Below, piece after piece: positions 15,545 to 25,472 of a DNA stretch of 64,000 bases. The notes under the pieces were generated by a model. That model was given only the letters and a program-made list of their open reading frames with translations, was not told where the DNA came from and made no database searches. This stretch comes from Paracoccus saliphilus (GTDB taxonomy: Bacteria > Pseudomonadota > Alphaproteobacteria > Rhodobacterales > Rhodobacteraceae): NCBI RefSeq assembly GCF_028553805.1, contig NZ_CP067140.1, positions 372,001-436,000 of the forward strand, in the 5' to 3' direction. Within the stretch, counting starts at the first letter, position 1. Every line of letters begins with the position of its first letter. The position numbers and the translations under genes were made by a program.

Positions 15545-17110
15545 CTATGGCAGGTTGTCGAATGTCCCGCGTTGCAGAAGCAGTGTTGCGCCGGACCGGG
15601 AAATCCAGTCGGCGATTTTCTGGCGCGCCGCGTTTTCCAGGCTGCCGATACGGCTATCCATCAGGATCAGTCCGGGGCGAAGTTGCATGGCGCGCACCAG
15701 ACTGACCAGCATGCGTTCCGAGAATGACAGGTTTCGCCCCCCCTCGGACAGCTTGCCATCGAGGCCGCCCAACCGGGAAAGAGCGTCGGCAAGCCCGGCT
15801 TCTTTCGCGAGCGTTTCAATATGCGCATCGTCTTTGCGACGCGATATTCCAAGGGTCAACGCTCTGCGCAGCGATCCCCGGAGGATAAGCGGTTCGGGAC
15901 TGATCGCGACAATTCCCCGCCGCAGGCTGCCCCGGCTTACCTGCCCGAGGCAGAGACCGGAAAAGCCGATACGTCCTTCCGGTATTTTTTCGAGCCCCCG
16001 CAGGGCATCGAACAGATAGGCGGTGTCGTGCTCGTTCAAATCCAGCAGAGCATTGCCTCCGGCGTCCAGATCAAGTTCGAACCGGCTGCCCGATGGCATT
16101 TCGAGACTCGAAATGGCAATGGCAATCGGTCCTTTGGGCAAAGCGCGTGTTTTGACATAAGACCCGCGCTGCCGCCTGGAAAGTGCTGCATCCGCCTTGA
16201 TTGCCGCCGAACGCCAGGCCGAATACAGGTTCCAGACGGTCGCGAGATCGCGCAGGGGCGAGATCATCAATCCGAACGCTGCCAGCCCGCCCGCGATCTC
16301 GCCGGGCGTTGCGCCGCTGCGAAAGCCGCTCAGGATGATTACCATTGCTGCCAGCCCGGCCAGAATATCGGGGATCGCCTTCAATGCTTCGGCCATGCGG
16401 ATGCGCGCAATCGCCGCCTGGACCATGCGGTCGATCTTGCGATCAAGGCGGTCCGTCTCGATCCCACGGCGGCCCAGATGGTCCAGTTCCGGCGCCATGG
16501 GCATTCGTTCGGCCATATCGACGGCGATGCGGGCGCGCCGGGCGCGAAGGCGCCGATGCAGAGGTCTGAGATGGAACCCGCCGAATCCGATCGTGCCGAG
16601 CGTGACGATGACGAGCGGAAGTGTTGCCAGGGCGAAGATCGGGGCGAGCAACCACAGCACGGCAAGCGCCATGGGGATCAGGATTATGCCCGCGACAAGA
16701 CGGGGAAGGCCAAGCCCGACCCAGTTGCGAAACGCGGTCATGTCGCCCACGAAGCGCAGGCTCATATAGCCATTGCGCCGCGCGGCAACATCGCTTGCCG
16801 ACATTCCGGCGGCATGTTCGAACAGGGCAAGCCGGATGTCGCGCGCATAGGATTGCCCGAGCCGTTCGCCCGTCACCCGTGCCGCAACCCGGGCCATTGC
16901 GATCACCACCCCGGAAGCCGCCAATGTGACGAGCAATGTCACCGGAAGCACTGCCGGGCCATGCAGGGCCTCGAACAGCCCACGAGTGGCGAATGCCGCA
17001 GCACCTGCCCCAACCCCTTGCGCAAGTGTCAGCGCGCTGACCGCCAGCAATCCCCTCTGGCGGCCATGTCCCAACAATCCGGGCAGAGCCATCAGGCGGC
17101 GCTCTGCCAC
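15545..17110 (-). CDS. ABC exporter-like protein with a degenerate ATPase domain
   Basis: A 521-residue half-exporter: about six transmembrane segments (residues 20-300) fused to a nucleotide-binding-like domain (about 325-521). That domain has lost its catalytic signatures. Where Walker A should be (about 350-365) the sequence is AGGNALLDLNEHDTAYLF, with no GxxGxGK(S/T). The signature region is LSEGGRNLSFSERM (454-467). Walker B is LILMDSRIG (481-489) with the catalytic Glu replaced by Ser, and no switch His is seen before the C-terminus. ATP hydrolysis is therefore unlikely. It may work with another subunit or have a non-transport role. It overlaps the P-loop gene by 19 bases; an alternative start is 17092. 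Confidence 0.8.
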   Translation of the reverse strand: MAERRLMALPGLLGHGRQRGLLAVSALTLAQGVGAGAAAFATRGLFEALHGPAVLPVTLLVTLAASGVVIAMARVAARVTGERLGQSYARDIRLALFEHAAGMSASDVAARRNGYMSLRFVGDMTAFRNWVGLGLPRLVAGIILIPMALAVLWLLAPIFALATLPLVIVTLGTIGFGGFHLRPLHRRLRARRARIAVDMAERMPMAPELDHLGRRGIETDRLDRKIDRMVQAAIARIRMAEALKAIPDILAGLAAMVIILSGFRSGATPGEIAGGLAAFGLMISPLRDLATVWNLYSAWRSAAIKADAALSRRQRGSYVKTRALPKGPIAIAISSLEMPSGSRFELDLDAGGNALLDLNEHDTAYLFDALRGLEKIPEGRIGFSGLCLGQVSRGSLRRGIVAISPEPLILRGSLRRALTLGISRRKDDAHIETLAKEAGLADALSRLGGLDGKLSEGGRNLSFSERMLVSLVRAMQLRPGLILMDSRIGSLENAARQKIADWISRSGATLLLQRGTFDNLP

Positions 17111-18144
17111 TTGGCCCCTGCTCGCAGGGCGAATGCGTTGGCTTCTGCGGGATCGGACAGATCGCTCTTTCCAAGCACCCGGATGCCGGTTGCGGTTCGG
17201 GCTTCGGCGGATGCCATGGGTGAGCAGCTCAGCATGCCTGTCAATGCGTCCGGCTCGACACCGTGCCGTCGAAGCTCGGCAACACCGCCCGCGGCCGCGA
17301 CCGCATCGCCACAGGCGAAGACGAAGCCAGAGATGCGCTTTCGGAATTCAGGATCGGCAAGAAGCTGTGCCGTCTCGCGCTGAAACAACCCATCGGCTAT
17401 TTCCAGAACGGCGATCTCGCAGCCAGAGTCTTCGGCATGGGCGAGCAGCCGTTCGATCCCGGCACGGACACGTCCGACCGGTTCGCGATAGGTCGAAACC
17501 ATCCCGGCATCGGTGAAATCGGCTACCACATGCGCGCCGGTGTCCTGGTATTCGTTGAAATCACCAAACGCGCCCGTGCCAGTGCCCTTGAGCGCGGCGA
17601 CGCACCAGCCTGCGCGGCGCAATCCCAATGCAAGCTGTGCGGTGGCGACTGTCTTGCCGGAATTCATTGCCGTTCCGAATATTGCGACCACAGGAATCCG
17701 GTCACCACGCGCCGATGGCTTCAGCGCGTAGTCCTCGAGGTTCAGGGATGTGCCATCTGCCCGGATCAGCCGTCCGGCAGGAATGAGGCGTGTCGCCTGC
17801 CTGATCCGTTCATTCTTCGCCACCATCCGTCCGATGCAGCCGCCACCGGCAAGCATATCCGCACCTTCACGCCTGATCTCGGCAAGGCCTTCGAATTGAT
17901 CGGGTGCATAGCGCGCTCCGCAGGCCAGCACGATCGCATCGCCCGGATAGATATCCGAATGCCGTCCCGAGGAAAGCTGCACGCGCCGGTGCTGTCCGAT
18001 CTCGGCTACATGCGCCAGGATCAGATCGCCGGGGCGGGCCTTTGAGAATTCGGTATCCATGCCGGCGATCGCATCATGTGGAACCCGGCGCGTGGAGAAT
18101 GTCCATTTGGCGGCGGCAATTTGCGTTTGAAGAGGGGGCGTCAT
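17092..18144 (-). CDS. P-loop NTPase-like protein (DUF1611-like), unknown function
   Basis: A 350-residue predicted cytoplasmic protein. The N-terminal half (about 1-140) contains conserved-looking LILAHVAEIGQHRRVQLSSG and YPGDAIVLACGARYAPDQFE segments. The C-terminal half starts with a P-loop, IFGTAMNSGKTVATAQLALG (GTAMNSGKT at 157-165), then ALKGTGTGAFGD (about 184-195) and FTDAGMVSTY. The layout recalls DUF1611 or dethiobiotin-synthetase-like folds, but I cannot name a reaction. It is the middle gene of a three-gene operon (hydrolase, this, degenerate ABC protein). It may supply the nucleotide chemistry that the ABC partner lacks (speculation). Confidence 0.7.
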   Translation of the reverse strand: MTPPLQTQIAAAKWTFSTRRVPHDAIAGMDTEFSKARPGDLILAHVAEIGQHRRVQLSSGRHSDIYPGDAIVLACGARYAPDQFEGLAEIRREGADMLAGGGCIGRMVAKNERIRQATRLIPAGRLIRADGTSLNLEDYALKPSARGDRIPVVAIFGTAMNSGKTVATAQLALGLRRAGWCVAALKGTGTGAFGDFNEYQDTGAHVVADFTDAGMVSTYREPVGRVRAGIERLLAHAEDSGCEIAVLEIADGLFQRETAQLLADPEFRKRISGFVFACGDAVAAAGGVAELRRHGVEPDALTGMLSCSPMASAEARTATGIRVLGKSDLSDPAEANAFALRAGAKWQSAA

Positions 18145-18183: not shown

Positions 18184-19026
18184 TCAGCCGGCGGCGGCGA
18201 GTGATATGGAGGTATCGGGAATATCGGCCACCATCCGGGCCAGGCCGGCAGTGATGATCGCCTGCTCGACATCATGGCTACAGTCCGGCAACTCGATCAG
18301 GGAAATCCTGGCCGTGTAACCATTGGAGCGCGCCGCCTTGCGCACGGCCTCGACATAGGATCGGGCGCGGTCATGCCTTGTCCGGCCTTGTCCGGCATCC
18401 AATGCTGGAGTGACTCGCAGGGCGCAATCACGCTCCGTGTCCCGGGTGCCGATGAATACGCGAATTTCAAGCCCGAGATAGGCGGCAAGCCCTGCCTGTT
18501 TGCGTCGGGTCCACAGCTCTGCGCCCCGCGCATCGCTTTTGCCAAGGCCGTAGGGAAAAGGCATCGACATATTGGGCAGGCAATACCAACCGGCAGCAGC
18601 GAGGTTAAGCCGGGCGATACGTTGCGGATAGAGCATGGCGGTGCGATGGGCGAGCTGCGCCCCGCCGGAATGACCGAATAGATCCACCGGACCCGCGCAA
18701 GCGGGAAATTGCAGTGCGAGCCTGTTCAACAGCTCGACAAGGGCTTGGTCGGCGCGCGCCGCAGGCCCCGGACGCTGAAAATGCGGCCAGTCCTTTTCCG
18801 TGAAATGCGGTACGATAATCAATCGGCCATTGCGTTCGGCCTCGTCTCGAAAATATCGCACCAAAGTCTGGGCGTTTCGCGAAATACCGTGCAGGACCAC
18901 GAGCGGCTTCGCATGCGTGATACGGCGTGGATGTATGACATATGCCTCAAGCGGGCCAGCCGGCGTCGCGACCCTGATGTGATCGGTGGTGCTTGCGGTG
19001 GCAAGGTTTTCGAATTTGCGGTCCAT
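18184..19026 (-). CDS. Alpha/beta hydrolase
   Basis: A 280-residue alpha/beta-fold hydrolase without a signal peptide. Visible are the oxyanion-hole segment VVLHGISRNAQT (residues 43-54), the nucleophile elbow LFGHSGGAQLAH (Ser120) and a C-terminal ELPDCSHDVEQAI with the likely catalytic His. The HGxSRN and GHSGG patterns recall poly(hydroxyalkanoate) depolymerase/esterase-like enzymes. The start at 19026 has AAGGAG upstream; the longer frame would start within or upstream of the promoter at 19060-19084. It is the first gene of the hydrolase/P-loop/ABC operon. Confidence 0.85.
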   Translation of the reverse strand: MDRKFENLATASTTDHIRVATPAGPLEAYVIHPRRITHAKPLVVLHGISRNAQTLVRYFRDEAERNGRLIIVPHFTEKDWPHFQRPGPAARADQALVELLNRLALQFPACAGPVDLFGHSGGAQLAHRTAMLYPQRIARLNLAAAGWYCLPNMSMPFPYGLGKSDARGAELWTRRKQAGLAAYLGLEIRVFIGTRDTERDCALRVTPALDAGQGRTRHDRARSYVEAVRKAARSNGYTARISLIELPDCSHDVEQAIITAGLARMVADIPDTSISLAAAG

Positions 19027-19059
19027 GACGGTTCTCCTTGAGCCGTGTTCCGCATCGAT

Positions 19060-19084
19060 TACGCGGAAGCATGGGAAGTATTCC
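19060..19084 (-). promoter_or_regulatory. ECF-type promoter of the hydrolase operon
   Basis: On the minus strand AGGAATA (-35) is separated by 16 bases, counted from GGAAT, from CGTAAT (-10). The -10 element ends 33 bases before the start codon of the hydrolase gene. It shares GGAATA and CGTA with five other promoters between 19 and 24 kb. Confidence 0.65.
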
Positions 19085-19213
19085 TGACCGGTTAAATTTT
19101 TCTTGCGAAATTGAGCGCGTCGTGGGGACAGGATAAACTTTTTCAAGACTGACAGCGGGTCGGGACGGTTCGCGAAATCCCGATGGCGTGGAAATTATCG
19201 GATTCGCTGTCAT

Positions 19214-20620
19214 TCACATGTTCTGCCCAATGATCACTTCCTGCCGCTTTCGGTTGTCGGCAATACCCCATGCCTGCTTTTCGAGCGGCAAAACCCAGGG
19301 CTCGGTTGACAAGAGATTCCATTCGACCCGAGTCAGATCGGCATCGGGGTCGATGAAGATCTGGCAGGGCCGACCGTTCAACGATTTGCAGATCTCGGCG
19401 TGGACCGAAACGTCGCGCCCTTCCTGCTGCCATAGATCGGCCAGGTGATTGGCGAATTGATGGATCATGTCGGCGCGGACCAGCATCTTGTCCGTCTGAC
19501 GGAAGGTCAGATAGTCGTCGGGATCGACCCGCCAGCTATCGCCGCTCTCCCGGTCGGTCACGACGAACATGCCTACCGCCTCGCGATCGAAGAGCCGCAT
19601 CCGCCACGAGAAACGGTGGCCGTCGCCGCTCCAGCGGATCTCGGATTCAAAGGCGCCGCCGCGGATCGGGATCACCAGTTGCCCGGCAAGCCAGACCGCG
19701 GACACCAGCAAGACGAAGCGGGGCAGAGCCTTGGCCGGAGTGGTGGTTTGCGGCATCCGCGATACTGTGCCTTTTTTGCGCAGGCAGCTGATCATCCGGA
19801 CGGGCCAGTCGGGCGCGAAGAAGATCGTGGTGGCGGCAATGGTCAGCCAGGGGAATATGCCGATATTGAAGAAGAAGGCATTGGCAAAATGGAACAAGCC
19901 GTAGATCAGGAAAACCGGAAGCCGGGTCTTTCGTTTCAACAGCAGCGGTGCTCCCAACACATGCAACGCGATCACGCTCCAACAGGCCAGGACGATCAGC
20001 CAATCCTGCTGGAAGACTGGCTCGATCCATAGCCCATCGGTTCGCTCACGCAGCCATAGCCCAAGCGGCTCTCCCCGCAGCCAGTCAGGTGTCAGCTTCA
20101 CCAACCCGGCATAAATCAGCACGATCTCGGTCTGCGCGCGCAGCATGAACACCGCCGCATAGGGCACCGAGGTTTCGCGCCGCGGCCGGATCAGGGCGTC
20201 CAGCGACCAGACACGCGCCGCAGGCAGGCAACACAGCAGTAAGGCGTAAAGCAGCACCAGGTAGAAATGATTCAGATACTCTGCTGAATCGAGTAGAAAG
20301 AAATAGCCGAAAAGCAGGGTCAGTGCGATGATGGCGAAACGGTATAACAGTCCCAGCATGACCAGAAGCGCCGCCACGCCGAGACCAAGCCAGGCAATCT
20401 GGATCCAGGGCTCTGGCAAGGGTTCGACCCATGAGAAACCCGGGTAGGAGAAATGGAAGTCGGGCGCGACCCAATAGCGCCAGATCCGGTCATATTTGAT
20501 GAAGCGCCAGCAATCCCAGAGCAAAAGCGCCCCGAAAATGATACGGAACAGGGCAAGGGACTGGGCGGGAACGGCCAGGGACAAGTGGTTGAGGATTCTG
20601 CTTGGCAAGGCGACCGACAT
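19214..20620 (-). CDS. HTTM-domain membrane protein (gamma-carboxylase-like)
   Basis: A 468-residue polytopic membrane protein of the HTTM family, related to vitamin K-dependent gamma-glutamyl carboxylase. The N-terminus LALFRIIFGALLLWDCWRF, then YLNHFYLVLLYALLL, MLRAQTEIVLIYAGLVKLTPDWL and LFHFANAFFFNIGIFPWL are typical of the family. A soluble C-terminal domain (about 310-468) follows, with IRWSGDGHRFSWRMRLF and DPDDYLT. Bacterial members are largely uncharacterised. It is divergent from a DCC protein, a frequent partner of HTTM genes, and shares an overlapping ECF-type promoter region with it. Confidence 0.85.
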   Translation of the reverse strand: MSVALPSRILNHLSLAVPAQSLALFRIIFGALLLWDCWRFIKYDRIWRYWVAPDFHFSYPGFSWVEPLPEPWIQIAWLGLGVAALLVMLGLLYRFAIIALTLLFGYFFLLDSAEYLNHFYLVLLYALLLCCLPAARVWSLDALIRPRRETSVPYAAVFMLRAQTEIVLIYAGLVKLTPDWLRGEPLGLWLRERTDGLWIEPVFQQDWLIVLACWSVIALHVLGAPLLLKRKTRLPVFLIYGLFHFANAFFFNIGIFPWLTIAATTIFFAPDWPVRMISCLRKKGTVSRMPQTTTPAKALPRFVLLVSAVWLAGQLVIPIRGGAFESEIRWSGDGHRFSWRMRLFDREAVGMFVVTDRESGDSWRVDPDDYLTFRQTDKMLVRADMIHQFANHLADLWQQEGRDVSVHAEICKSLNGRPCQIFIDPDADLTRVEWNLLSTEPWVLPLEKQAWGIADNRKRQEVIIGQNM

Positions 20621-20652
20621 TGGCTTTTCTCTTCCATCATACGGTGTTCGAT

Positions 20653-20684
20653 GGAATTACGCAGCATGCTGACACGTTATTCCC
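20653..20684. promoter_or_regulatory. Overlapping divergent ECF-type promoters for the HTTM and DCC genes
   Basis: Minus strand: GGGAATA with CGTAAT (17 bases between GGGAAT and CGTA), serving the HTTM gene 38 bases downstream. Plus strand, on the same DNA: TGGAATT and CGTTAT with the same 17-base gap, serving the DCC gene 34 bases downstream. The region is an imperfect palindrome centred on GCATGC, so each strand's -35 lies next to or overlaps the other strand's -10. Confidence 0.6.
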
Positions 20685-20711
20685 GCGACGATGGCGGAAA
20701 GTGGGGAGAGC

Positions 20712-21074
20712 ATGAGCGCAGGACTTGAAATTTATTATGACGGGGAATGCCCATTCTGCCGTGCCTATATGCGAATGCTGAACCTTCGCCGCGCCGTGGG
20801 CGAGGTCGAACTCATCGACGCGCGCTCGGACGATCCGCGGGTTGCCGTGCTGACCGAGGCCGGTTTCGATCTTGATGAAGGCATGGCGGTGCGGCACGGC
20901 GCGCAGATCTTTCACGGCGCCGAGGCCATCCGGCTTCTGGCCGTTCTGTCAGAGGAGCGGGGGGTGCTTCGAATGGTCCTGCGTTCGCCGCGCCGGGCTG
21001 CGATCATCTACCCGATATTGCGGGCCGGGCGCAGGCTGACATTGAGATTACTCAATCGCCAGGGACTGCACTGA
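20712..21074 (+). CDS. DCC-family thiol-disulfide oxidoreductase-like protein (DUF393)
   Basis: A 120-residue protein with the DxxCPxC motif in IYYDGECPFCRAYMRML near the N-terminus and a conserved histidine-containing GAQIFHGAEAIRLL. DCC proteins are thought to be thioredoxin-like redox proteins; few have been studied. The ATG at 20712 is preceded by GGGGAG; an earlier start at 20691 would put the binding site inside the gene. It is paired divergently with the HTTM gene. The sequence suggests no signal peptide, so it is probably cytoplasmic. Confidence 0.85.
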   Translation: MSAGLEIYYDGECPFCRAYMRMLNLRRAVGEVELIDARSDDPRVAVLTEAGFDLDEGMAVRHGAQIFHGAEAIRLLAVLSEERGVLRMVLRSPRRAAIIYPILRAGRRLTLRLLNRQGLH

Positions 21075-21101
21075 GGACGAGAACGGTATTATCCGAAAAA
21101 G

Positions 21102-21128
21102 GAAGTGCCGGCGGATCGCCGGCACTTC
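21102..21128 (-). terminator. Strong terminator between the DCC and Asp-rich genes
   Basis: A perfect 12-bp stem GAAGTGCCGGCG with a 3-base loop. On the minus strand it is followed by CCTTTTTC, so it is a Rho-independent terminator for the Asp-rich gene. It may also stop the convergent DCC transcript. Confidence 0.85.
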
Positions 21129-21162
21129 AGTTGCTGTGCGGAAGGGGGATGTCCGCAGTGCA

Positions 21163-21516
21163 TCAATCGTCATCGTCGTTGCCGCCCCGACCTCCGCGGC
21201 CTCCGCGAGTCCCGCCATTGTCGTCATCGTCGTCCCTCGATGCCCGCCCGCGACCGTCATCGTCGTCGTCGTCGCGTGAAAAACTGGTGCCGCGGCGGCC
21301 ATCATCGTCGTCGTCATCGCGCGAAAAGCTGGTGCCACGCCGGCCGTCATCATCATCGTCATCGCGTGTGGATCGATTTCCTGCGTGGCTGTGGCCCAAG
21401 CCACCAAAAATACTGTTCAGAAAGCGGGCCACCGGATCAGGATCGGCGAAACTGGCGCTCGGCAGGGTCACGCCTCCCATCAGGGCGGCGATGGTCAGGA
21501 TTTTCAGGGTCTTCAT
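21163..21516 (-). CDS. Small secreted Asp-rich repeat protein
   Basis: A 117-residue protein with a clear Sec signal peptide (MKTLKILTIAALMGGVTLPS, cleavage expected after ASFA, residue 24). The mature 93 residues are about 30% Asp. The unit RDDDDDDGRRGTSFS occurs twice exactly (51-65, 66-80) and once shortened (81-93), followed by a five-Asp run, a Gly/Arg-rich stretch and a four-Asp C-terminus. Such tracts could bind Ca2+ or other cations, or serve as modification or protease substrates. The start has AGGAG and a matching ECF-type promoter upstream. No homologous family is recognised. The protease at 23580 carries the same six-Asp tracts. Confidence 0.8.
   Translation of the reverse strand: MKTLKILTIAALMGGVTLPSASFADPDPVARFLNSIFGGLGHSHAGNRSTRDDDDDDGRRGTSFSRDDDDDDGRRGTSFSRDDDDDDGRGRASRDDDDDNGGTRGGRGGRGGNDDDD
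21238..21366 (-). repeat. 45-bp in-frame tandem repeat in the Asp-rich gene
   Basis: About three units of a 45-base repeat encode RDDDDDDGRRGTSFS. The Asp runs mix GAT and GAC codons differently between units while the protein stays the same, which suggests selection on the protein rather than a recent DNA duplication. Confidence 0.8.
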
Positions 21517-21562
21517 GATCTTCTCCTGTTTTCAAGGCGGCCTTTGGCAGCCGCACCAGGAT

Positions 21563-21588
21563 TACGTGGCATGGCCATATTTATTCCC
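21563..21588 (-). promoter_or_regulatory. ECF-type promoter of the Asp-rich gene
   Basis: GGGAATA and CGTAAT on the minus strand, 16 bases between GGGAAT and CGTA. The -10 ends 46 bases before the start codon. Spacing and both elements match the promoter of the subtilase gene. Confidence 0.65.
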
Positions 21589-21596
21589 GGGTTCTT

Positions 21597-22091
21597 TCAT
21601 GGTTTGATGAAGATTGGAGTTCCCGGTTTCACGAGATCATATATTTCCGTCATTTCATCATCCGATACGGCGACGCAGCCCAGGGTCCAATCCTCGGGTG
21701 GATTTCTCGTGGCGGTTCCCCGTCCGTGAATGAAAATATCGCCGCCGGGGCTCAAGCCTTGGGCGCGTGCATGGGCGCTGTCCCGCGCATTCGGATAGGA
21801 AATTCCAAGAGACAGATGGAACCTGGAGTTCGGATTCTTGTGGCTGATGTAATACAATCCCTCTGGTGTTCTGCCATCACCTTGAAAACGCTTGTGTCCC
21901 TCTGGACTCGGGCCCAGGTCGACCTTGTAGGAACTGACCGACTTCCTGCCGTTGAGCAGGTGCAGGGTTCGTTCGGATTTATCTAACAGAAGTTGGGTGA
22001 TTTCCGTGGTGCTGCGATCAATATTTGCCATCGAAACGCCGGGGAAAAGGGCCATGATCAGAAGACAGGCTTGCAAGGACGATTGTTGCAT
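21597..22091 (-). CDS. Secreted L,D-transpeptidase (YkuD domain)
   Basis: A 164-residue exported protein with a signal peptide (MQQSSLQACLLIMALFPGVS, cleavage near MANI). The YkuD domain is most of the mature part: DGRTPEGLYYI, IFIHGRGT (His122) and DWTLGCVAVSD with the catalytic Cys139. Members form 3-3 peptidoglycan cross-links or attach proteins to peptidoglycan (YafK/ErfK-like). An earlier ATG at 22103 exists; GGAG-ATCATT before 22091 favours the shorter form. It carries its own ECF-type promoter in the regulon at 19-25 kb, suggesting wall remodelling as part of that response. Confidence 0.88.
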   Translation of the reverse strand: MQQSSLQACLLIMALFPGVSMANIDRSTTEITQLLLDKSERTLHLLNGRKSVSSYKVDLGPSPEGHKRFQGDGRTPEGLYYISHKNPNSRFHLSLGISYPNARDSAHARAQGLSPGGDIFIHGRGTATRNPPEDWTLGCVAVSDDEMTEIYDLVKPGTPIFIKP

Positions 22092-22142
22092 AATGATCTC
22101 CATTTTTCCTGAAGAAGCGATCTCGTTGCTTCATATGGAAAA

Positions 22143-22168
22143 TACGGAGGTCACGATTTTTTATTCCG
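22143..22168 (-). promoter_or_regulatory. ECF-type promoter of the L,D-transpeptidase gene
   Basis: CGGAATA and CGTATT on the minus strand with 16 bases between CGGAAT and CGTA. An A-rich run follows the -35 as in the Asp-rich and anti-sigma promoters. The -10 ends 51 bases before the chosen start. Confidence 0.6.
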
Positions 22169-22240
22169 GATGTGAGGAATTTATTTGGGTCCACAATTCA
22201 TTTATCAGGGCCAGATAATCGCGCAGTTTTATCGCCACGC

Positions 22241-22939
22241 TCACTCTGCCAGTGCCGTCGTTTCCTCAGCCGGAGTGAGTGGGGCGCCAGCCTCCGTTTC
22301 GGCCAGGAACTTGTCCAGCGCCTCGAGGTCACCCGAGGCGGGAACATAGCCCTCGGCGGCCTCTATGTCGGTGGCAAAGCGTTGTGACCAGCCTTCCCCC
22401 TCGCGGCAGGCGACGACAACCGTCATCTCGGTGCCGGAATGGGTCTCGAACTCCCGGCACAGTTCACCCGCACCGGTTCGGTAAGAGGCGATCATGGTCA
22501 GGTCTTGTCCGTCCGGCAACTCGCTGGATTCGCCTGACATCAGGCTGTCCAGCGCGGTGAGATGAGCTTTGGGCAAGCTGCTTTCCGGGCCGCCGTAGCC
22601 CCACCACCAGCCAAGGCCGATCACCGCCGCTGCCATCGCTGCCGCCAGTGCCGCCAGCGGGCGGCGGTTAAGATTGGCCGGCGCCGACCCGCGCTGTTCT
22701 TCGGGTGGGGCGGGCTTGGTCTGCGTGGCGGCGGTGATCCGTGCGATCAGTGCGGCATCCCTGGGTGACGGCTGTGGCCGAGCCGCTTCCTCGCGTAGCA
22801 GGCGCCGGGTTTCGGTAAAGCGGCGCAGCCGTGCCTGCAATTCGGAATCCGCTTCGACCGCAGCCATGACACGTTCGGCAACGTCGGAAGACAGCTCGCC
22901 ATCGGCCAGCGCCATCAGGGTTTCGTCTGTGATCTGCAT
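22241..22939 (-). CDS. Membrane anti-sigma factor of the ECF system
   Basis: A 232-residue single-pass membrane protein. The N-terminal cytoplasmic part begins with ITDETLMALADGELSSDVAE, the usual anti-sigma opening, without a zinc-binding His-x3-Cys-x2-Cys motif. One transmembrane helix lies at about residues 94-114 (ending WWWGY), followed by an extracytoplasmic domain of about 118 residues with two cysteines (GELCREFE, VVVACREGEG). It directly follows the sigma gene. ATG 22939 has AAGGAA upstream. A TTG at 22957 has a better AAGGAG, but that site would lie only 2 bases from the predicted transcription start. Confidence 0.85.
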   Translation of the reverse strand: MQITDETLMALADGELSSDVAERVMAAVEADSELQARLRRFTETRRLLREEAARPQPSPRDAALIARITAATQTKPAPPEEQRGSAPANLNRRPLAALAAAMAAAVIGLGWWWGYGGPESSLPKAHLTALDSLMSGESSELPDGQDLTMIASYRTGAGELCREFETHSGTEMTVVVACREGEGWSQRFATDIEAAEGYVPASGDLEALDKFLAETEAGAPLTPAEETTALAE

Positions 22940-22977
22940 CTGCGGTTCCTTGGCCAAGACGGGCTCCTTACATCGCT

Positions 22978-23003
22978 TACGCGCCGCCGGTCATTTTATT
23001 CCC
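22978..23003 (-). promoter_or_regulatory. ECF-type promoter of the anti-sigma gene, overlapping the sigma gene end
   Basis: GGGAATA, 16 bases from GGGAAT, then CGTAAG, on the minus strand. The -35 lies inside the last codons of the sigma gene (Gly-Ile-Lys-stop) and the -10 ends 38 bases before the anti-sigma start. This would raise anti-sigma without raising sigma. Confidence 0.6.
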
Positions 23004-23482
23004 AGCTTCTCGGCCAAGGCCAGCCGTGCGCGGGACAAGCGGCTCATGACCGTGCCTTTCGGGACATTCAAAACCTCGGCCGCTTCGGCGTAACTGAGCT
23101 CATGAATGCAGACCAGATCGAGAATTTCGCGCTGTTCGGGCGAGAGTTCGGCCATCGCAGCTTCGGTCGAGCGCAACATCAGCCGCGCTTCGATCTGTCC
23201 CTGGGAATCGACCGGCAACGCCTCGGGCATCTCGAATACATCGACTTCGGCGCCACGGGTCCTGTGGCGACGCGTCATGTCGATAAAGGCGTTGCGCATG
23301 ATTCGGAACAGCCAGGGCTCAAGCCGCAAGGCCGGGTCATAGCTGTCGGCAGCGATAATCGCCCGCTCTACGGTGATCTGGACCAGATCGTCGGCGACAT
23401 CGCCGCGTCGCGAAAGAGACAGGGCATAGCGCCGCAAGGCTGGCAGACGCTCTATCAGAGCCTCGCCAAACGCTGCATTCAT
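22991..23482 (-). CDS. ECF-family RNA polymerase sigma factor
   Basis: A 163-residue group IV sigma factor with region 2 (about 15-75: RRGDVADDLVQITVERAIIA, then LEPWLFRIMRNAFIDMTRR) and region 4 (about 105-160: LSPEQREILDLVCIHELSYA, then VPKGTVMSRLSRARLALAEK). There is no C-terminal extension. ATG 23482 has GGAG 7 bases upstream; the long frame upstream is a shadow of the protease gene. It is divergent from the protease and upstream of its anti-sigma factor. No copy of the GGAATA/CGTA motif was found in front of the sigma gene itself. Confidence 0.93.
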   Translation of the reverse strand: MNAAFGEALIERLPALRRYALSLSRRGDVADDLVQITVERAIIAADSYDPALRLEPWLFRIMRNAFIDMTRRHRTRGAEVDVFEMPEALPVDSQGQIEARLMLRSTEAAMAELSPEQREILDLVCIHELSYAEAAEVLNVPKGTVMSRLSRARLALAEKLGIK

Positions 23483-23521
23483 GGCATTCTCCGACCCGGA
23501 AAGACAAAATGCATCAACGAA

Positions 23522-23547
23522 GGGAATATATCCTGCGCAGCAGCGTA
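23522..23547 (+). promoter_or_regulatory. ECF-type promoter of the subtilase gene
   Basis: GGGAATA, 16 bases from GGGAAT, then CGTAGT on the plus strand. The predicted transcription start (about 23554) is downstream of the ATG at 23553, so translation should begin at 23580. Confidence 0.65.
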
Positions 23548-23579
23548 GTAATATGAAACCGGAAGTAAAGGGGCCGAAC

Positions 23580-24857
23580 ATGCCGAAATTCGTGATCATC
23601 CTGATCGTCGCTATCATGACGTTGCCGATGCAGCCGCATATCGGTTCCGAAGGCCCGTCGTTGTTCCTGGCTGCCCTTGCGGATGACGACGATGACGATG
23701 GCGGTCGCCGCGAGATAGGTGACGACGATGATGACGACGGCCCCACCCGGCGTCGGGTCCGGGCTCCGCGAGCGACGCCGCCAACGCCACTTCCGCAAAG
23801 GGCCGCGAATGAAATCCTGGCGCGCGGCCTGTCGGAAGACGATCTGGCCGGATTACTGCAACAGGATTTCAGCACGCTCGAAAGCAACAGGCTGTCAAAT
23901 GGCCAGTTATTGGTGCGCTTGCGCAAGCCCGCCGCGCTGAGCATGAACGAGGCTCTTGCCATCGTGCGCGAACTGACTTCGGACGACGGCTCGGATTTCA
24001 ACCATTTTTACCGTTCCGAGCAAGGCAGTGCCTGCAATGGCATCGATTGCCCCGCACGGCAGATGATCGACTGGCCCGTCTCGACCGCCGCTTGCGGAAG
24101 CCTGCCGCGAATCGGCATGGTGGATACCGGGTTGAACGCGCAACACAAGGCCTTGGAGGGCGCGAAGATTCAGCTGCATCGCTTCGACGATGGCCGGAAA
24201 GCGTCGGACCTCTTGCATGGCACCGCAGTCGCCGCGCTGCTGGTCGGAGAGGCCGATAGCCGCAGTCCGGGCCTGATCCCCGAAGCCGAGCTTTTGGCGG
24301 TGGATGCTTTCCACCGCGCCGGTCAGGATCAGCGCACCGACGCGTTTTCATTGATCCGGGCGCTGGATTACCTGGCCGACAGGCAGGTCAGGATCGTCAA
24401 TCTTTCGCTGGCCGGTCCAGCCAACGAGGCTCTGGAGGCGCAGGTCTCGAAAATGGACAAGACCGGAATATTATTGATAGCCGCTGCGGGAAATACGGGG
24501 CCGGCAGCTCCTCCTGCGCATCCGGCCGCCTATCCGCAGGTCATCGCCGTTACAGCCGTCGATCGCCGCGGAACCATCTATCGCCGCGCCAATCGTGGGC
24601 CCCATATCGATCTGGCGGCTCCCGGTGTCGATGTCTGGACGGCGGCATCGATTCGCGGCGCGCGCACCAAGACCGGCACCTCTTATGCCGCGCCGTTCGT
24701 CAGCGCAGCCGCAGCGCTGCTGCTGCAAAGCGAGCCGGGCCTGACCAATGAGCAGATCCGTTCACGCCTGCTTGCCGATGCCCGCGATCTGGGACCGCAG
24801 GGGCGCGACAATATTTTCGGGGAAGGTCTGGTCACGGCGCAAACGGCCTGCAGGTAG
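23580..24857 (+). CDS. Secreted subtilisin-like serine protease (S8) with Asp tracts
   Basis: A 425-residue exported protease. A hydrophobic N-terminus (MPKFVIILIVAIMTLPM and following, cleavage perhaps after LAALA, residue 34) leads straight into two six-Asp tracts (35-40 and 48-53) separated by GGRREIG and followed by a Pro/Arg-rich linker. A pro-region of about 100 residues follows. The catalytic triad is Asp182 (IGMVDTGLN), His213 (LLHGTAVAALLVG) and Ser368 (KTGTSYAAPFVSAAAAL), with oxyanion Asn305 (AAAGNTGP). The Asp tracts match those of the secreted protein at 21163-21516. It is divergent from the ECF sigma gene and is probably its target. Confidence 0.92.
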   Translation: MPKFVIILIVAIMTLPMQPHIGSEGPSLFLAALADDDDDDGGRREIGDDDDDDGPTRRRVRAPRATPPTPLPQRAANEILARGLSEDDLAGLLQQDFSTLESNRLSNGQLLVRLRKPAALSMNEALAIVRELTSDDGSDFNHFYRSEQGSACNGIDCPARQMIDWPVSTAACGSLPRIGMVDTGLNAQHKALEGAKIQLHRFDDGRKASDLLHGTAVAALLVGEADSRSPGLIPEAELLAVDAFHRAGQDQRTDAFSLIRALDYLADRQVRIVNLSLAGPANEALEAQVSKMDKTGILLIAAAGNTGPAAPPAHPAAYPQVIAVTAVDRRGTIYRRANRGPHIDLAAPGVDVWTAASIRGARTKTGTSYAAPFVSAAAALLLQSEPGLTNEQIRSRLLADARDLGPQGRDNIFGEGLVTAQTACR

Positions 24858-25076: not shown

Positions 25077-25472
25077 ATGGCGAAATACATCCATTCGATG
25101 ATCCGGGTTCTGGACGAGGCGGCTTCGGTCCAGTTCTATGACCGCTGCTTCGGCCTGAAGGTTGCCGAGCGGTTGGATTTCGAGAATTTCACACTGGTCT
25201 ACCTGGCCAACGAAGAAAGCGGGACCGAGCTTGAACTGACCGTCAACAAGGGCCGGACCGAGCCCTATGATCTGGGCGATGGCTATGGTCATGTCGCCTT
25301 TTCCGTCGATGATGTGGACGCGCTGCACGCGAGGCTGGAAGCCGAGGGCTATGCACCTCGCAAACTGGTCGATTTTGCCCCCGGGGGAGAGGTTATCGCA
25401 CGCTTCTTTTTCATTGCCGATCCGGATGGCTACCAGATCGAGGTGCTGCAGCGGGGCGGCCGCTACAAGTAG
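25077..25472 (+). CDS. gloA: Lactoylglutathione lyase (glyoxalase I)
   Basis: A 131-residue single-domain VOC enzyme that converts the methylglyoxal-glutathione hemithioacetal to S-lactoylglutathione. The four metal ligands of the E. coli type are in place: His in YIHSMIRVLD, Glu in GTELELTVN, His in GYGHVAFSVDD and Glu in YQIEVLQ. Substrate-contact segments FYDRCFGLK and FIADPDGYQIE are also present. The length is normal. Confidence 0.92.
   Translation: MAKYIHSMIRVLDEAASVQFYDRCFGLKVAERLDFENFTLVYLANEESGTELELTVNKGRTEPYDLGDGYGHVAFSVDDVDALHARLEAEGYAPRKLVDFAPGGEVIARFFFIADPDGYQIEVLQRGGRYK

Follow-up and report, generated by a model that had tools for sequence, protein, structure and literature searches.

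The recurrence of one promoter-like motif before a series of envelope-related genes raises the question of which sigma factor reads it, and of what the genes so marked might do together. In the 64-kb stretch of DNA analysed here (the window), the exact pattern GGAATA-N15/16-CGTA is present six times against an expectation of 0.04, and 100 shuffles gave at most one copy. All six copies listed in a preliminary description are there, its coordinates being at most one base off, and its variant for the DCC gene, GGAATT-N16-CGTT, is confirmed at 20653-20678 on the + strand. The spacer is 15 at five of the exact sites and 16 at the HTTM site only, and at 7/7 window sites the -35 begins GGAAT. Counted from the sequence, the distance from the -10 to the proposed start codon is 32-46 nt at the exact sites, and 12 or 33 nt at the DCC variant, depending on the choice of ATG.

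The explanation favored for the whole, and held with good confidence, is that the sites are RpoE6-like ECF26 promoters with feedback through the anti-sigma factor, that the HTTM and DCC genes share a two-way promoter and that HTTM is a carboxylase-type enzyme. The motif, its conservation and co-occurrence, and the fold and catalytic residues of HTTM are established from sequence; sigma dependence, the signal, the direction of promoter use, and the activity and substrate of the enzyme are inferred. The features concerned are collected in Table 1.

Table 1. Genes and promoter sites of the cluster, in window coordinates
Feature	Position	Strand	Evidence or remark
ABC-exporter-like protein, degenerate ATP-binding loop	15545..17110	-	PF00664 over, PF00005 below cut-off
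P-loop protein	17092..18144	-	weak DUF1611 match below cut-off
alpha/beta-hydrolase-like gene, first of operon	18184..19026	-	weak abhydrolase matches below cut-off
Hydrolase-operon promoter	19060-19084	-	exact motif
HTTM protein with vitamin K gamma-carboxylase lumenal domain	19214..20620	-	PF05090, PF22777
Interlocked candidate two-way promoter, 31 bp	20653..20683	both	DCC site 20653-20678 (+), HTTM site 20658-20683 (-)
DCC thiol-disulfide oxidoreductase-like gene, CPFC	20691..21074	+	PF04134; start may be 20712
Small secreted Asp-rich protein, 117 aa, DDDDDDGRR repeats	21163..21516	-	ORF; poly-Asp neighbors of HTTM in relatives
Asp-rich gene promoter	21563-21587	-	exact motif
YkuD L,D-transpeptidase-like protein, 168 aa	21597..22103	-	PF03734
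YkuD promoter	22143-22167	-	exact motif; YkuD homologue motif-led in L064, L245, L246
Anti-sigma gene, 232 aa, RseA_N-like	22241..22939	-	PF03872 above cut-off
Anti-sigma promoter	22978-23002	-	exact motif; spans last codons and stop of sigma gene
ECF sigma factor gene, 163 aa, RpoE6-like, ECF26-type	22991..23482	-	Sigma70_r2/r4
Subtilase promoter	23523-23547	+	exact motif
Secreted subtilase, poly-Asp N-terminal stretch, divergent from sigma	23580..24857	+	PF00082 (Peptidase_S8)

Distribution of the motif and of the sigma factor

A scan of the whole 4.6-Mb genome, as had been proposed at the outset, finds the motif concentrated in the cluster, with six of the eight exact sites inside its 4.5 kb; the reversed-pattern control also has 8 sites in this genome. 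As sources of further regulon members the exact-motif scan offered only the two outside sites, both implausible as promoters, one being intragenic and the other having its -10 overlapping a start codon, and weaker members beyond exact matches may exist. The two outside sites are also what could be said for the six-site cluster having arisen by chance, against which stand the low expectation for the window and the conservation of the motif in relatives; chance is excluded by that conservation, and its probability is negligible.

For comparison, the sigma protein was searched for in 121 same-genus genomes, with an E value of 1e-36 or lower (our own cut) taken to mark an orthologue, which gave 59 genomes with and 62 without one. 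Exact motifs average 5.6 per genome in the former versus 1.8 in the latter (p 1.5e-12), whereas for the control, the pattern reversed, the means are 3.9 and 3.8 (p 0.62); since the motif count differs by presence of the sigma factor and the control does not, the excess follows this sigma factor. Reading of the sites by another sigma, be it another paralogue of ECF26 type or ECF15, the general stress sigma, is improbable. With a limit of E 1e-20, 119/121 genomes have some ECF match, mostly to paralogues ~42% identical, which could share the sites, and the overlap of RpoE6 and RpoE2 targets in S. meliloti, described in the available text of PMC6180224, is in keeping with that. However, the motif excess tracks this orthologue rather than the widespread paralogue, and the -35 here is GGAATA where ECF15 promoters in the same text show GGAAC. 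The ECF15 (EcfG) promoter type, which needs a -35 GGAAC, was accordingly rejected, all window sites having GGAAT.

Comparison of loci extended to 40 same-genus regions and 100 further loci, where copies of the motif again precede the anti-sigma gene, the divergent subtilase gene and further genes that vary. The same genes are motif-led in relatives, often even where they are unlinked to the sigma gene. Co-occurrence of motif and sigma factor, together with conserved sites, unlinked ones included, strongly supports the earlier proposal of control by one ECF sigma factor, and from such comparison of sequences a sigma regulon is very likely.

At rest, the sigma factor would be kept bound by the membrane anti-sigma factor, to be freed by an envelope signal. 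Free sigma factor would then promote transcription of the divergent gene for the secreted subtilase, of its own anti-sigma gene from the promoter that lies within the 3' end of the sigma gene, and of a lineage-specific set of genes for secreted or membrane proteins. The comparative regulon gives a testable output for the sigma factor, namely a secreted protease and small acidic or Ser/Asn-repeat secreted proteins, with a gamma-carboxylase-type enzyme added in a subset.

The sigma, anti-sigma and subtilase core and its counterpart in S. meliloti

The anti-sigma protein has one hydrophobic (transmembrane) segment, as judged by eye. How the core is wired was assessed at 99 distinct loci having both sigma and subtilase genes, allowing GGAATW as the first half of the motif and CGT plus A, T or C as the second. 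Of these loci, 83 have an anti-sigma motif, 89 a subtilase-directed motif and 11 a sigma-directed motif. The anti-sigma and sigma motifs almost exclude each other, with 81 loci having the anti-sigma motif only, 9 the sigma motif only, 2 both and 7 neither, the last being loci where the expected motif is absent (p 3e-7 for exclusivity, related sequences being counted separately). With the anti-sigma motif alone at 81 loci, the layout at most loci, the window included, therefore suggests negative feedback, and that at a minority suggests self-activation of the sigma factor; on the tree, several switches between the two states are required. Negative feedback via the anti-sigma promoter is likely, judging from the placement of the motifs, and would operate without motif-driven self-activation of sigma. 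Among the 82 anti-sigma site offsets listed, 76 place GGAATA in frame within the sigma gene, where it encodes Gly-Ile, and 44 have the site taking in the sigma stop codon.

A known counterpart is S. meliloti RpoE6. In the available text of PMC6180224 it belongs to group ECF26 and has a divergent serine protease gene, SMa0142, the anti-sigma gene ecfR6 may be transcribed from a separate promoter within rpoE6, and the consensus (section 7) is -35 GGAATA / -10 GT. No RpoE6-type motif is named for rpoE6 itself in that text; overexpression of RpoE6 induces the protease gene, ecfR6 and neighbors, and the role of RpoE6-type ECF26 sigma factors is left undefined there. The available part of PMC10880074 has RpoE6 activating an ECF26 promoter. 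Identity between the window sigma and its S. meliloti orthologue at locus L146 is 50%, and both fall within one tree of 98 sigma rows. At L146 the protease promoter is the published SMa0142 promoter and those of ecfR6 and SMa0148 are each one base different; the L146 sigma sequence is on plasmids in 63 Sinorhizobium records, which fits pSymA. The ECF26 features found in the window are orthology, GGAATA/GT promoters, an adjacent membrane anti-sigma factor (RseA_N) and a divergent serine protease (Peptidase_S8). Like the window, the RpoE6-EcfR6 system combines a divergent serine protease and a membrane anti-sigma factor whose promoter is inside the sigma gene with a -35 of GGAATA, a -10 of CGT and no motif at the sigma gene.

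There are also differences. The -10 is mostly CGTA in the window system but CGTT in S. meliloti; correspondingly, CGTA is present at 67/80 sites in loci with a sigma of 66% or higher identity to that of the window and at 23/103 sites, the others mostly CGTT, in loci below 66%. The small secreted protein is of a Ser/Asn-repeat type in S. meliloti and poly-Asp in the window, and tblastn reported no homologues of HTTM, DCC or the hydrolase operon across the 20 kb of the S. meliloti locus. The preliminary description had considered the system undescribed. For the sigma factor, anti-sigma factor, protease, motif and embedded promoter this needs revision, as they match RpoE6, and so the core and its motif are of a known kind; for the other targets the claim agrees with the literature searched, in which HTTM/DCC, the Asp-rich protein, the L,D-transpeptidase and the hydrolase/P-loop/ABC operon were not found as targets. 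What is new here is these further targets, the interlocked two-way promoter of HTTM/DCC and a carboxylase-like HTTM beside a poly-Asp protein.

A separate observation is that a glyoxalase-family ORF (25077-25472) follows the subtilase gene with no motif before it; in S. meliloti, the targets of RpoE6 include a gene of the glyoxylase family in the available text of PMC6180224.

Further probable targets and the interlocked HTTM/DCC element

Conservation of the site before the hydrolase operon can be followed through DUF1611 (P-loop) relatives: the motif is upstream in 10/15 rows for close relatives and 0/12 for distant ones (39-42%), one of the five close rows without it having no upstream sequence in its locus. 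The ABC-exporter-like protein of that operon also has a CydD-like match, below cut-off. In many Paracoccus loci, genes for a glycerate kinase and an SLC13-like permease, each motif-led, adjoin the anti-sigma gene (L043, L052, L053, L055, L057, L060-L065, L070, L071). In rhizobial relatives motif-led small secreted proteins are largely Ser/Asn repeats, (SSSN)n, and DUF6065 genes are motif-led too (L129-L137, L141, L144-L146, L151, L153, L154, L157, L160). A gene for an OmpR-type response regulator is motif-led in L086, L088-L092 and L126, and one for a DUF4956 membrane protein in L125, L142 and L147.

A different type of arrangement is that between the HTTM and DCC genes, where the shared element GGAATWACG...CGTWATTCC has each -35 overlapping the -10 of the opposite strand. 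At 28 distinct HTTM places the motif is present at 25 and on both strands at 19; the HTTM of L192 has no motif. A strict search of ~2.5 Mb of fetched sequence yielded 18 distinct two-way elements, all at HTTM/DCC, and 20 block shuffles yielded none. The clear dyad would also suit an operator for a dimeric transcription factor, though the probability of this is slight, smaller than that of another sigma reading the sites. The outer length is 29, 30 or 31 while each strand keeps a spacer of 15 or 16, the two strands differing in 3/18, and the same -35 and -10 halves serve as one-way sites at other genes. Such variation agrees better with a pair of promoters than with an operator of fixed form, and the operator dyad was disfavored on the ground that spacers vary per strand.

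With a two-way promoter preferred, sigma-bearing RNA polymerase would use the one inverted repeat for both HTTM and DCC, probably one direction at a time, as simultaneous use of both directions looks impossible from the overlap. There is a parallel in the bidirectional sigma-70 promoters of E. coli, for which the available text of PMC12825309 describes pseudo-symmetrical DNA able to engage RNA polymerase in two orientations, binding in one preventing the other. Those share a -10, whereas at HTTM/DCC each -35 overlaps the opposite -10 and the motif is of ECF type; the term ECF has 0 occurrences in the main text of that paper as available. If used both ways, the HTTM/DCC element would offer studies of polymerase choice a useful natural ECF promoter, a single inverted repeat being read in both directions.

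A carboxylase-like HTTM protein and its poly-Asp neighbors

HTTM is present in 27 of the 121 same-genus genomes, 24 of which have the sigma orthologue (p 1.7e-6). The three lacking a close orthologue comprise two (G053, G070) with a diverged sigma (44-45%) adjoining a motif-led subtilase gene, and one (G068) with an HTTM fragment only. In an order-wide sample, HTTM is in 8/292 genomes, 7 of the 8 being among the 23 with the sigma factor, and the lumenal-domain family PF22777 is in 2/398 phylum-wide genomes, the present one and G132, both with the sigma factor.

The HTTM protein matches human GGCX in sequence (E 2e-33) and in fold, the human chain being matched only to about residue 525. With residue roles in this vitamin K-dependent gamma-carboxylase taken from the available text of PMC12589487, the catalytic base K218 and H160 of GGCX are, by mapping from the alignment, kept as K175 and H118 in 26/26 rows. 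The Glu-binding N158 is L in 26/26, and Y395 is H in all rows but one, which has Q (25 and 1); thus at N158, K217, Y395 and M402 of GGCX, HTTM has L, V/A, H/Q and R. HTTM would be a gamma-carboxylase-type membrane enzyme acting, probably with DCC, on envelope or secreted proteins of the same response. Paracoccus relies on ubiquinone and is not known to use vitamin K, and beta-carboxyaspartate is a Gla-like calcium ligand. Kept catalytic and quinone-pocket residues, a changed glutamate pocket and linkage to secreted poly-Asp proteins, in four regions with an EF-hand as well, would be in keeping with an enzyme that has preserved its chemistry but changed its substrate. The more specific proposal, that HTTM-DCC is a relative of the vitamin K carboxylation system which, driven by a non-vitamin-K quinol and expressed from an ECF26 two-way promoter, carboxylates the secreted poly-Asp protein to beta-carboxyaspartate, is tentative and rather doubtful. 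The literature searched had nothing on beta-carboxyaspartate, nor on HTTM paired with DCC or as a bacterial carboxylase. Were HTTM to modify poly-Asp, protein carboxylation as a means of binding calcium would occur in free-living alphaproteobacteria, and a single cluster would combine the substrate with its regulation.

Whether the poly-Asp protein is a substrate or a bystander is a matter on which the evidence divides. There is an even chance that HTTM, DCC and the poly-Asp protein are merely co-regulated neighbors, poly-Asp itself binding metal or wall polymer. This would accommodate the changed glutamate-binding residues of HTTM, the poly-Asp proteins of two HTTM-less loci (L087, L118), the subtilases that carry poly-Asp without an HTTM neighbor (L095) and the 14/34 HTTM rows having no poly-Asp neighbor under a strict ORF finder, one which missed known poly-Asp genes (L041, L121). 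It sits less easily with the distribution of poly-Asp. A poly-Asp protein is within 4.5 kb of HTTM in 20/34 HTTM rows versus 6/92 HTTM-less sigma loci, three of those six being RTX proteins, and the p of 1.6e-9 is too small because some genomes are counted twice (e.g. L041/L105, L100/L117). Of 12 HTTM regions from outside the main sigma locus, 8 have a small secreted poly-Asp protein led by the motif, and DDDDGRR codons are in 13/27 HTTM genomes versus 4/94 others (p 2.9e-7). Among motif-led small secreted proteins, poly-Asp ones are with HTTM in 20/22 cases and Ser/Asn-repeat ones in 0/20 (p 4.5e-10), a split classed by eye and confounded with phylogeny, Rhodobacterales alone giving p 0.02 with two Ser/Asn loci.

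A DPxxRFL recognition core in the small secreted proteins was considered as a signal for HTTM and rejected, the loose pattern being in 16/42, at least 9 of them in HTTM-less loci. Four HTTM regions (L084, L120, L194, L249) have an EF-hand-like poly-Asp protein, the one scanned being near but below the Pfam cut-off. RTX calcium-binding repeat proteins are downstream of the motif, often ~110 nt away, in several Paracoccus loci (L040, L044-L049, L054, L059, L066, L069, L074, L076). In the window, a 12-pair terminator-like stem (21102-21128) is between the convergent DCC and Asp-rich genes.
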